64,000 nucleotides of DNA from Devosia rhodophyticola (GTDB lineage: Bacteria > Pseudomonadota > Alphaproteobacteria > Rhizobiales > Devosiaceae). A model generated the notes under the pieces. It was given only the letters and a program-made list of their open reading frames with translations. It had not been told where the DNA came from and searched no databases. Shown one piece after another: positions 24,005-31,685 of this stretch. Location of the stretch: NCBI RefSeq assembly GCF_028816475.1, contig NZ_CP118247.1:682001-746000 (forward strand). Direction: 5' to 3'. The position numbers were made by a program, and so were the translations under genes. How positions within the stretch are numbered: position 1 is the first letter of the stretch; the number at the start of each line of letters is the position of its first letter.

Positions 24005-24224
24005 GGGATCCTATCGAGAGTTCGTTGCCAATTCTTGCGCTGAGTGCGCACAAGGGGCGATCACATCTGCTTTCTTGCAGACTTTGTCAATCAGGGTCTC
24101 CCCGCTCAGCGTCGCGCTCCACTGAGAGCTATAGTTCTTGTTTTGTTCTCGTGCAACTGTTAAAAGTTGATGGACGTTAACCGTGAAACGATTCGAAATT
24201 GTGTCACGCCGCAGGAGAGCAGAC

Positions 24225-25373
24225 ATGGCCCTCTATCAGGCCCCATCCTTTGAAGCATTGGAACGTTTGAGTTTGAGCCGGGACGCGGATCTGGCGCGGC
24301 GGGAGCTTGTTGATCCGACGCGCAATCGCGGCCGTGGGGCGCAATCCAACCGTACAGGGCGATTCGAAAAGGTCAGCCGGGAAGGTTTTGACGATGGCTG
24401 GAGCAGTGTCGAGCCCCTGCCCCTTTTTGAAACTGTTGAACATCTGGAACGCGCCAAATCGATCATCACGGCCAACGACAGTCCTGATATCAATTTTGAA
24501 CGCTCGATCAATGCCTACCGGGGTTGCGAGCATGGCTGCTCCTATTGTTTCGCGCGTCCCTCTCATGCCTATCTCGGCCATTCCGCCGGCATTGAGTTCG
24601 AGCGCGACATTTACGTCAAGACAAACGCTGTAGAAGCATTGCGTGCCGAATTGGGGGCGAAGAACTACAAGGTCAAGCCGATTGCCATGGGAACCAACAC
24701 GGATCCTTACCAACTGGCTGAACGCACGCACAAACTGACCCGTGGGATTTTGGAAGTTTTTCTGGAAACCAGGCATCCGACCATGATCACTACCAAGTCT
24801 GCTCTGATTGTGCGCGATCTGGATCTATTGAGTGAACTGGCCAAACACGGACTGGTCAAGGTTGGCATTTCAATGACCTCGATGGATCACAAGCTCAGCC
24901 GGAAAATGGAGCCGCGGGCCTCAAGCCCGGCACGACGGCTAGAGGCTATCAGACTGTTGAGCGAGGCGGGCATTCCCGTTGCCGTTTTGGCTTCACCGAT
25001 GATTCCGGCAATCAACGATATGGAGCTTGAGCGGATATTGGACGCTACGGCGGCGCAGGGCGCCCGAGGTGCGGCAATGATTCTGCTGCGTTTGCCGGGT
25101 GAAGTGCGCGATGTATTCCGTGAATGGCTGTTGCGCCATTTTCCGGATCGGGTACGCCACGTACTATCGCTGGTCCGAGATACGCGCGGAGGACAAGACA
25201 ATGATTCCCGTTTCGGCAGTCGGATGCGCGGAGAAGGCGCCTACGCCACCTTGTTGCGCCAGCGGTTTGAAAAGGCGCGCGCCCGCTATGGGTTGGACCA
25301 GAAGTTGCCAGCCCTGCGTTCAGATCTGTTCGAGCCCCCGCGTCTGGAGGACCGACAGATGAGCTTATTTTAG
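24225..25373 (+). CDS. PA0069 family radical SAM protein
   Basis: Radical SAM protein of about 382 residues related to spore photoproduct lyase-like enzymes. The cluster motif is CEHGCSYC (Cx3Cx2C) in NAYRGCEHGCSYCFARPSHAYLG, split across the active-site loop. ATG at 24225 is chosen because of CAGGAGAGC just upstream; an in-frame GTG at 24183 lacks this. The gene-order radical SAM, rnhB, ccrM is recurrent in Rhizobiales. The reaction of this subfamily is not established. Confidence 0.88.
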   Translation: MALYQAPSFEALERLSLSRDADLARRELVDPTRNRGRGAQSNRTGRFEKVSREGFDDGWSSVEPLPLFETVEHLERAKSIITANDSPDINFERSINAYRGCEHGCSYCFARPSHAYLGHSAGIEFERDIYVKTNAVEALRAELGAKNYKVKPIAMGTNTDPYQLAERTHKLTRGILEVFLETRHPTMITTKSALIVRDLDLLSELAKHGLVKVGISMTSMDHKLSRKMEPRASSPARRLEAIRLLSEAGIPVAVLASPMIPAINDMELERILDATAAQGARGAAMILLRLPGEVRDVFREWLLRHFPDRVRHVLSLVRDTRGGQDNDSRFGSRMRGEGAYATLLRQRFEKARARYGLDQKLPALRSDLFEPPRLEDRQMSLF

Positions 25374-26830: not shown

Positions 26831-27964
<1,134 letters not shown>

Positions 27965-27997
27965 TTTTGATCTCCAGTCAGTCAAGGCTCAAACTAA

Positions 27998-28023
27998 CCG
28001 CCGGTTTGCCCCGGCGGTTTTTT
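27998..28023 (+). terminator. Rho-independent terminator after ccrM
   Basis: Stem CCGCCGG (27998-28004) pairs with CCGGCGG (28011-28017) and is followed by six T residues. It lies 34 bases past the ccrM stop. A nearly identical hairpin with the same flank occurs at 28600-28626. Confidence 0.88.
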
Positions 28024-28038
28024 GCGTCTGAGGCAGGC

Positions 28039-28079
28039 TTGACGAAACCCCTCCAAATCTACTAGAACATATCAGGAAC
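28039..28079 (+). promoter_or_regulatory. Candidate SOS promoter with LexA-type box
   Basis: TTGACG (28039-28044) and TAGAAC (28063-28068) form a -35/-10 pair with 18-base spacing. GAAC-N7-GAAC at 28065-28079 overlaps the -10. Direct GAAC-N7-GAAC (GTTC-N7-GTTC on the other strand) is the established alphaproteobacterial LexA operator. The downstream gene begins at 28140. Binding is predicted from sequence only. Confidence 0.6.
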
Positions 28080-28086
28080 ACATCAA

Positions 28087-28101
28087 GGTTAAGTCTTAAC
28101 C
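28087..28101. promoter_or_regulatory. 15-bp perfect palindrome, possible operator
   Basis: GGTTAAG-T-CTTAACC lies just downstream of the predicted transcription start of the GFA-family gene and 38 bases before its start codon. Symmetry and position suggest a regulator site. Its TTAA cores also resemble CtrA half-sites but at the wrong spacing. Confidence 0.4.
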
Positions 28102-28139
28102 GAACTGATCTTAGTTGTGCGCTCGACAAGGGGAAATGA

Positions 28140-28502
28140 GTGGTGTCGGAAGAAAAATTCCATGGAAGTTGTCAATGTGGTGCGGTTGAGTATGAGGTCA
28201 TTGGGCTCAATTTGACGCAGACCGTCACCTGCAATTGTTCGCGATGCCAGCGGTTGGGATCAGTTTTGGCATTTGCGCCCCGGTCGAATTTTTCGTTGCT
28301 AAAGGGTCAGGAAGCCCTCAGCGAATATTTGTTCAACAAGAAGGCGATCAGGCATCAGTTCTGCAAGGTTTGTGGCATCCAAAGTTTCAGTTTCGGCGCA
28401 ACCCCCGATGGCGGCGAGATGGTGGCCGTCAATGTGAATACGCTTGACGACGTCGATCCACGCAAACTGTCGTCCACCCACGCGGATGGGCGGTCTTATT
28501 AG
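28140..28502 (+). CDS. GFA/CENP-V domain protein (glutathione-dependent formaldehyde-activating enzyme-like)
   Basis: 120-residue zinc-binding protein with the family cysteines in GSCQCGAVEYEV, CNCSRCQRLG and QFCKVCGIQSF. Starts with GTG at 28140 or 28143, after AAGGGGA at 28128-28134. Members bind two zinc ions; some act on S-hydroxymethylglutathione, most are uncharacterised. The LexA-like promoter upstream would put it in the damage response, which is unusual for the family. Flanked on both sides by near-identical terminators. Confidence 0.88.
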   Translation: MVSEEKFHGSCQCGAVEYEVIGLNLTQTVTCNCSRCQRLGSVLAFAPRSNFSLLKGQEALSEYLFNKKAIRHQFCKVCGIQSFSFGATPDGGEMVAVNVNTLDDVDPRKLSSTHADGRSY

Positions 28503-28806
28503 GGTATCGCAGGAAAGCCCGGGCAGGCCAATGATCCGCAGACCGCGGCAAGGTAATGCCGCCTGACTTCGACCTCCAATGTGTTCAGGCTCGAACTAGC
28601 CGCCGGTTTGCCCCGGCGGCGTTTTTGTTGGTCGGGACCCTGAGGCTGTCTGCGGCAACGTTGGTTGCGGTTACCTACTTGTGGAGCCTTTAACCTTAAT
28701 GATTTCCAGTGTGATCACTTTTTCGTCGCGGATAAAATTCCTGTTCCGCAATTAACGACATCTGAAGTTTTGAAGAGCAAGTTGGGATTCAATTAGGAGT
28801 ATTATC
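28503..28806. other. Intergenic region between the GFA-family gene and the molybdopterin-fold gene
   Basis: 304 bases without a gene. It contains the terminator at 28600-28626 and an AT-richer stretch from 28680 that should hold the promoter of the gene at 28807. TTTAACCTTAAT at about 28690 is noted but does not fit a known operator spacing. Confidence 0.5.
28600..28626 (+). terminator. Terminator after the GFA-family gene, duplicate of the ccrM terminator
   Basis: Stem CCGCCGG (28600-28606) pairs with CCGGCGG (28613-28619), followed by CG and five T residues. About 40 bases upstream of the stem also match the region upstream of the hairpin at 27998 (shared GGCTC-AACTA), so the whole module is repeated. 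Confidence 0.8.
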
Positions 28807-29310: not shown

Positions 29311-31685
29311 GTGCCCCGGATCTCGATTACGGGCTGGGCCAACACATCTGGATCCACTGCGCATCGCACTAACGATCGGCGTCGTGGCCTTTGTTGTTGC
29401 CGCTGTCTACATTGGTAGTTTGTTGTTGCAGCGGCAATCGGCGCTTGAGCCGATGGGCCGCGGCAATGTTACCTGGTTGATTGCGCAGAGCCCGTCAGAA
29501 TATGCACGGCTCGAGCAAAGGATCGGCGCCTATGGGCTGGGCGACGCGGGCATCGACGTCAACGAGGTTACGCTGCGCTTTGATATTGTCAGCAATCGCA
29601 TGCAGACCTTGCACAGCAACTCGTTGGCCCCGTTCATCGCCTCCGATCCTCGGCATGCCAGAACCCTGAAGCAATTGGACGGGGCCGTCGACTCTGCCCG
29701 ACTGCTGTTGAGCGAAATCCATGTCAAAGGCACACCTGCCCGCATGCTGGCGTTGCTTGACCCTGTCTATCCCAAATTGGTCCGCCTGTCGGTGGACGCG
29801 AATTCCTGGAATGCGGAACGGTTAAACCGTGAGCGCGAGGAACTGTTTGGCCTGCAAAAAGTGTTTGCCTGGGTGGCCACGGGGTTGATTATTTGCGGCT
29901 TTGTGTTTGTCGTTTTGCTCCTGCTCAACAACCGCCTGCTCAAGCGCACGCATGAACAATTGCGCCGCAAGGATCGCGCCCTGCAAATCCAGTACAACTG
30001 GTTTGAGGCGGCGGTCAATAACATGTCCCAAGGGCTTTGCCTGACCGACTCCAATCAACGGCTGCTGGTTTCCAACCGGCAGTTTCTCAATCAGTTCGCG
30101 CTGCAATCGGGAGCAAACTGGCAGGGTGAACCCCTGGCAAAACTGTTGCCGTCCCGTATGTTGCCGACCCTTCAATCTGATGACCCTGGCGAGGCAAACC
30201 CGGATCAGCTTATCGAACCATTTCAGCGCCAAACTCATCGACTGGATGATGGAACGGTGCTTTTTGTCACCCACGAACCCATGGTTAACGGTGGTTGGGT
30301 TTCAACTTTTGAAGATATTACAGATCGTCAGCGAGCGCAGGACCGTATCGCCCACATGGCGCATCATGATGGGTTGACGGGACTGCCGAACAGGTTGCTT
30401 TTCTGGCAGCATACCGAGCAGGCAATTGTCGATCTCACGGACGATGGCGAACCATTTGCGATCCTTTATCTCGACATCGACAGGTTCAAGGAAGTCAACG
30501 ACACGCTGGGTCATCCTACGGGCGATGCGTTATTGCGGGCCATTGCTGATCGGTTGGGAACTGCTGCGGCGGCGCCAGACATAATTGCTCGATTGAGCGG
30601 GGACGAATTTGCGGTGCTTCACCGACCGACCTCCCAGCTGTCTTCGAGCACGCAGGCGCTGGCCGAGTGGGTCTTGGAGGCAATTAGCCAGCCTTATCTG
30701 ATCGACCACAAGGAACTTCAGATTACCACCAGCATCGGCATAGCCTTTGCCCCGCAGGATGGTGCGGACAGCGACGAACTGATCAAGAAGGCCGATCTGG
30801 CGCTTTATCGGGCCAAAGAGCTCGGCGCCAACAATTTCCGCTGTTTTGCCCCCGAGATGGAAGAAAAAATCCAGCGGCGGCGCAGTCTGGAAGTGGACTT
30901 GAAACGGGGCATCGCTGCGGGTCAATTCCAGTTGTACTACCAGCCGCTGATTTCGCTGCAGACGATGAAGATCGTATCGGGCGAGGCTCTCCTGCGCTGG
31001 AACCACCCCGTCCATGGATCTCGTTTCGCCGGCTGAATTCATACCGCTGGCCGAGGAAACCGGCTTCATCGACGAGTTGGGAGAATGGGTTCTGCAGCGT
31101 GCCCTGCGCGACGCCGGCCAGTGGCCGGAAAATGTTCGCGTTTCGGTCAATCTTTCGCCGGTGCAGTTCCGCAATGCTTCTTTGTCACACCGCGTCCAAG
31201 AGGCCTTGAACAAATCTGGCACGGCCGCTGAACGTGTGGAACTCGAGATTACCGAATCGGTTCTGCTGCATGACAGCAGCACGAACATGGAGACTTTGCG
31301 CCAAATGAGGGAACTGGGCTGCAAAATCGCACTGGACGATTTTGGAACCGGTTTTTCGTCGTTGAGCTATCTAATGCGGTTTCCCTTTGACAAGATCAAG
31401 ATCGATCAGTCATTCGTGCGCGGCCTAGAGGATCGCGGCGACAGGTTTGCCATCGTTCAATCGGTGGCCCGCCTTGCCAAGCGCCTCAATATGACAACCA
31501 CCGCAGAAGGGGTGGAAACACTGGCTCAACTCAACGTGGTCCTCGAGGCAGATTGCACCGAGGCGCAGGGCTTTTATTTCAACCGGCCCTTGCCCGAAAA
31601 AGAATTTCGATCACTGGTGCAGGGCGAGGCAAGCGCATCAGACGTCGGTCACACCACCCTGGCCAAACGTCGCGCGGCCTCCTGA
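29311..31685 (+). CDS. Membrane GGDEF-EAL cyclic-di-GMP enzyme, frame broken twice at GATCTCG (probable sequencing errors)
   Basis: As sequenced the gene is two frames: 29384-31036 (sensor, GGDEF, start of EAL) and 31014-31685 (rest of EAL). Reading GACTCG for GATCTCG at 31017-31023 joins them as NHPVHGLVSPAEF. The same change at 29319-29325 opens a GTG start at 29311 and completes the first membrane helix (IALTIGVVAFVVAAVYIG). The repaired protein has about 790 residues: helix near 20-40, periplasmic domain, second helix near 181-207, a PAS-like region, GGDEF with SGDEF near 429, and EAL near 557. The EAL set (EALLRW, NLSP, E of ITES, DDFGTG, KID, EGVET) looks complete. No RxxD I-site precedes SGDEF. 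Confidence 0.85.

Follow-up and report, generated by a model that had tools for sequence, protein, structure and literature searches.

The Gfa protein of P. denitrificans binds glutathione and did not catalyse the reaction expected of it when this was tested again, according to the parts of PMC4682968 covered here; in the same parts its authors propose a role as a carrier, and CENP-V is named as a homologue. On the regulatory side, the LexA regulon of Caulobacter crescentus includes imuA and uvrA and has the box GTTC-N7-GTTC (PMC12700426, as far as covered here), which is the same site as GAAC-N7-GAAC read on the other strand. A link between LexA or the SOS response and a GFA protein was not found in the main texts of 5.39 million open-access papers. 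In the part of PMC12445080 that was considered a GFA protein occurs in an expression list, and LexA is mentioned separately.

Here we report on a gene of the GFA family in the genus Devosia whose promoter contains such a box (GTTC-N7-GTTC on the other strand). The LexA promoter is ordinary in its form; the surprise is the gene behind it, which is found genus-wide and was apparently rebuilt after a loss.

Organization of the locus

The window, i.e. the whole stretch of DNA that was analyzed, comprises 64,000 nucleotides (positions 682001-746000 of a contig of 3,474,928 bases). Its features relevant to the GFA gene are collected in Table 1.

Table 1. Features of the GFA locus, with positions counted in the window.
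Feature	Position	Strand	Basis or remark
ccrM, neighbor and insertion site, outside the GFA unit	26831-27964	+	CcrM model 627.9 bits, below the cut-off of 830
Direct repeat, copy 1 (ccrM stop and terminator, 65 nt)	27959-28023	+	
Terminator-like stem 3' of ccrM	27996-28019	+	stem search
-35-like element TTGACG	28039-28044	+	sequence; TTGAC(A/T) 5' of the box in 47/47 genus-type genes, TTGACT in D. algicola
Likely -10 element TAGAAC, overlapped by the box	28063-28068	+	spacer of 18 from TTGACG
LexA-type box GAACATATCAGGAAC (GAAC-N7-GAAC)	28065-28079	+	pattern search and matrix scans
GFA-family frame, 120 aa, GTG start	28140-28502	+	PF04828 match; predicted fold resembling 3fac and Gfa 1x6m
Second copy of the direct repeat (82% identity), 3' of the GFA gene	28561-28625	+	
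Terminator-like stem 3' of the GFA gene	28599-28620	+	stem search

The original prediction of a GAAC-N7-GAAC box which overlaps a -10 element holds for this locus. It had also called the promoter a good one; elements resembling a -35 and a -10 are present, and the adjective is too strong, as a scan of 27900-28800 for the sigma-70 consensus found no promoter. In D. algicola the sequence TTGACT-N17-TAGAAC occurs at the matching position ahead of the GFA gene.

As expected from the outset, nothing but the GFA gene lies downstream. It is regarded as the sole gene of its unit because terminator-like stems occur at both ends (two stems in 27900-28800, compared to a mean of 1.6 in shuffled sequences). 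The possibility that the box serves a different gene was rejected on account of the stems on both sides and the lack of any other gene downstream.

This layout would correspond to a LexA-repressed unit of a single gene within the SOS response. LexA sitting on the box would cover the -10 element and keep the GFA gene off; upon DNA damage RecA would be activated and LexA cleaved, so that the GFA gene could be transcribed and a small protein of the GFA fold with both Gfa zinc sites be produced. Judged from the sequence, LexA control of the window's GFA gene is highly probable, and the protein is very probably made upon DNA damage; both the binding of LexA and the induction are what we infer from the position and the conservation of the box. 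Taken jointly, LexA control and the assignment to the GFA family are put forward with high confidence.

The GFA protein and its potential function

The family assignment, which was also part of the original prediction, is borne out by a match to the Pfam family GFA (PF04828) with 62.1 bits at a cut-off of 24.3. Seven cysteines (C11, C13, C31, C33, C36, C75 and C78) are invariant in 40 sequences, and their arrangement CxC...CxCxxC...CxxC represents both Gfa zinc sites. The predicted model (pLDDT 94.0, pTM 0.87) matches 3fac, Gfa 1x6m and PA2722 8ajq. No NCBIfam family was matched by the protein at E 0.001. When the window's genome was searched with the model TIGR02820 (cut-off 234.55 bits) and E values up to 1 were allowed, four matches resulted, all below the cut-off and all to proteins other than the window's GFA protein. 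By these profiles the protein is classed as a member of the GFA family and not as an equivalog of S-(hydroxymethyl)glutathione synthase (Gfa).

The most likely role of the protein would be to bind glutathione and, upon DNA damage, help to handle aldehydes or other thiol-reactive electrophiles beside class III alcohol dehydrogenase, for which the profile match lies above the cut-off in 30 out of 31 Devosia genomes (606 bits in the window's genome). We infer this glutathione-linked role from the Gfa zinc sites and fold, the presence of the dehydrogenase and the glutathione binding of the P. denitrificans protein, and it has the character of a guess; a detoxifying function is suggested tentatively and with considerable doubt. 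It is quite possible, if short of probable, that LexA control is real and that within the SOS response the protein, instead of detoxifying, carries zinc or glutathione, serves as a regulator or is associated with the nucleoid. The carrier role proposed for the P. denitrificans protein, which bound glutathione without catalysis, and the human relative CENP-V, which acts at centromeres (both from the parts of PMC4682968 covered), would agree with this, as would the fact that the window's protein is not the Gfa equivalog. Against it stand the completeness of both zinc sites, the nearest folds, which are GFA proteins, and the presence of the dehydrogenase of the glutathione-formaldehyde route.

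Conservation of the box in Devosia

A GFA match at E 1e-10 was obtained in 51 out of 61 Devosia genomes, and all 59 listed places were read. The GFA gene of the window's type occurs in two genomes, namely the window's own and that of D. algicola, and is preceded by the box in both. A second type, here called the genus type, was defined by the protein tail HWDGAN or a close variant; it occurs in 46 of the 61 genomes and, together with one locus from the order search (L127), amounts to 47 copies. Neither type was found in 13 of the 61 genomes at E 1e-10, three of which have matches to paralogues only.

The original prediction had named conservation of the box upstream of orthologues as a check, and a lack of it in close relatives as a refutation; no such lack was observed. 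Besides D. algicola, the exact box precedes 46 of the 47 genus-type genes, the remaining one (L023) being a single base off. The distance from TTGAC(A/T) to the box is fixed at 13 nt in 46 of these genes and is 12 nt in one; a -10 element at 17 nt therefore lies within the box. Compared to the window's box, the genus-type box has the opposite orientation and a different distance to the -35 element. None of ten GFA paralogues in Devosia carries a box, and one further GFA locus (L003) is unboxed as well, with the nearest box about 500 nt upstream.

Potential replacement of the GFA gene in the window clade

The genus-type gene is absent from the window's genome and from D. algicola. At one locus (L176) this gene adjoins a divergent NAD-epimerase gene, which both genomes have kept; in the 1.5 kb ahead of it neither a box nor a GFA frame is visible in either genome. 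In this clade the GFA gene is located behind ccrM with a box of its own (contig positions 3454359-3454715 in D. algicola G20-9), and the two proteins share 87% identity.

The surroundings of the gene give a hint towards its origin. Two copies of the repeat containing the ccrM stop and terminator are found in D. algicola too, and a single copy in all 15 other Devosia genomes read. Because this duplicated repeat flanks the GFA gene, an insertion of the gene at the 3' end of ccrM is most likely. As a separate observation, the region 3' of ccrM (27959-28023 in the window; loci L277-L288 and L290-L292) has a conserved tail and terminator followed by varying content, and may represent an insertion spot.

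The GFA proteins of the window clade are 38-50% identical to the genus type (41-46% for seven genes) and 58-65% identical to genes of Martelella, Rhodobacterales and some gammaproteobacteria, with which the window's protein is also grouped in a tree (SH-aLRT 96; a quick tree built on few columns). It is rather unlikely that the window's gene derives from the genus-type gene by a move to the site behind ccrM, divergence and a flip of the box. Such a move would be compatible with the AU test, by which a single clade of all boxed Devosia GFA genes is not rejected (p 0.383); the new location, the other orientation of the box, the closer relation to outside genes than to the seven genus-type genes and the position in the quick tree outside the genus type argue against it. 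A replacement of the lost genus-type gene by the window's GFA gene is the likely course of events. If this is right, LexA control was set up anew, which suggests selection for a GFA gene under SOS control.

The lexA gene and the quality of the assembly

All 61 Devosia genomes contain a match to the lexA model TIGR00498, 58 of them above the cut-off. In the window's genome lexA appears as two pieces in different frames (L125, 11386-12145; near 3458685-3459444 of the contig), and this split could be an assembly indel or a true break; the lexA gene of D. algicola is whole. A GGDEF/EAL-like gene of the window (29384-31685) is likewise split into two frames, and so is its copy in D. algicola. The completeness of the assembly is 93.44.

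Should lexA really be broken in this strain, as its two differently framed pieces could indicate, the GFA protein would be made constantly. We regard this as improbable in view of the intact lexA of D. algicola, the completeness value and the split GGDEF/EAL gene in both genomes, which points to indel errors.

Pattern statistics and other boxed genes

The bare pattern GAAC-N7-GAAC was seen five times in the window at an expectation of 1.65, and five occurrences were reached in one out of 100 shuffles. The whole genome contains 49+59=108 sites, compared to 51+43=94 sites of the reversed pattern. Taken by itself the pattern is therefore weak evidence, being near chance genome-wide, and it is the conservation that decides.

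To score the sites, a weight matrix was built from 26 boxes ahead of GFA genes in other Devosia (L004-L030) and applied to each of the 108 sites in the window's genome; as only these boxes entered it, the SOS genes of the window's genome had no influence on the matrix. With a score of 22.7 the window's box ranks sixth out of the 108. Scores of at least 22.6 were found at four sites in 231,679 scanned bases of the genome, namely ahead of the window's GFA gene, ahead of the window's radical-SAM gene and twice between uvrA and ssb; 20 random sets from a first-order Markov model had a mean of 0.0 such sites. That the box matches by chance and the GFA gene is no target of LexA, for which the near-chance count of the bare pattern and the empty sigma-70 scan might speak, is very improbable and was rejected in view of the conserved box with its fixed spacing in 46 of 47 genes, the unboxed controls and the rank in the matrix scan without a comparable site in random sequence.

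Genes were read around ranks 1-13, 15, 17 and 29 (the last chosen by eye, 14 and 16 left out). The best box belongs to imuA (NCBIfam 46.9 bits, below the cut-off), ranks 3 and 4 to uvrA and ssb, rank 9 to comM/YifB, rank 10 to radA, ranks 12 and 17 to lexA and rank 29 to rmuC; rank 8 is located 214 nt off the start of dnaE. Several profile scores stay under their full-length cut-offs because fragments were scanned. The genes comM, radA and rmuC we take to be members of the SOS regulon. No familiar SOS gene was found at ranks 11, 13 and 15, and recA is absent among the genes around the ranks read. The same motif thus precedes recognized SOS genes of this genome (imuA, uvrA/ssb, comM, radA and lexA, within ranks 1-17).

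Three further boxes are reported as observations in their own right. At rank 5 a protein of 136 amino acids (L083, 424-834, minus strand, box at 801) has no match in Pfam or NCBIfam and could represent a new SOS gene. Rank 7 (L057, 880-1613, box at 801) comprises an unnamed frame of 111 amino acids and a serine recombinase. Rank 2 (24134-24148 in the window) precedes a radical-SAM gene of the PA0069 family (24183-25373, NCBIfam 511 bits), which has a match in 59 genomes and an upstream box at every one of the 30 Devosia loci read; the upstream stretch is shared with a divergent transporter-like frame. This radical-SAM gene is very likely an SOS gene as well. A radical-SAM protein, of the same or another family, is described within SOS regulons of Gram-positive bacteria and Balneolaeota in the part of PMC7739468 covered. 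A PADLOC scan for defense systems gave no match for either the GFA or the radical-SAM protein.

GFA boxes outside Devosia

A search of the order gave a GFA match in 37 out of 199 genomes, and none of 28 homologues from other genera (28 of the 38 listed matches were read) carries a box. In the class, 13 out of 385 genomes were matched with a Reyranella GFA query and 5 out of 385 with the window's GFA as query, the window's genome being included in both counts. The 12 other loci from the Reyranella query have no box, one of them (L334) beginning inside the gene; three loci from the second query (L355-L357) coincide with L331, L324 and L325. A wiring of GFA genes into the SOS response that extends over the order or the class was not found in these searches. 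By eye, four loci (L128, L130, L135 and L199) have the GFA gene directly 3' of a frame which resembles the end of a urease beta subunit.

Among named homologues, a box lies within 250 nt in nine out of 79 (those of 80 with enough upstream sequence). Two of the nine are from Devosia, four from Paracoccus and two from Reyranella, and the last is a record grouped with Reyranella. About one would be expected in 79 such stretches from the background of 25 boxes in the 487,189 bases of the 80 loci. Within Reyranella three out of 17 loci are boxed, one of which (L336) is 99% identical to L241; this count leaves out L334 and L351, for a match starting inside the gene and a contig edge. In Paracoccus four of the six named loci are boxed, at differing distances. 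The occurrence in both genera is suggestive and patchy, and in part reflects common ancestry.

Comparison with known systems

The recognized SOS genes met in this analysis (imuA, uvrA, ssb, comM, radA) act on DNA. A genus-wide SOS gene from a glutathione-binding family would tie DNA damage to the small-molecule chemistry of thiols, and could provide a handle on the function of the many uncharacterized GFA proteins. A speculative reading, which we consider unlikely on present evidence, goes further: in Devosia the SOS response would have a true arm for handling aldehydes or electrophiles via glutathione, important enough that the clade that lost the ancestral SOS-controlled GFA gene gained a different one elsewhere with a LexA box newly set up, and this wiring would have arisen again in Paracoccus and Reyranella.

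The nearest solved structure is RSP_2168 of Rhodobacter sphaeroides (3fac; phmmer E 3.2e-17, Foldseek E 4.2e-10, 37% identity), a structural-genomics entry with no function assigned in its listing. With Gfa of P. denitrificans (1x6m, as far as its description was covered) the window's protein shares the fold (Foldseek E 1.6e-4, TM 0.62), and all seven zinc cysteines are spaced alike in the two. It differs from Gfa in having 21% identity, a length of 120 amino acids compared to a chain of 196 residues and no match to TIGR02820. To our knowledge no LexA control of the P. denitrificans Gfa gene has been described.

The C. crescentus LexA regulon shares the box with the locus, and imuA and uvrA with the boxed genes of the window's genome; it differs in that the main text of PMC12700426, in the parts covered, is without GFA, formaldehyde or CENP-V. 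The GFA genes of integron cassettes (PMC7370490, as far as covered) resemble the window's gene in being small and in reaching new places in genomes; unlike these, the window's gene has a LexA-type promoter of its own between the terminator repeats of ccrM.
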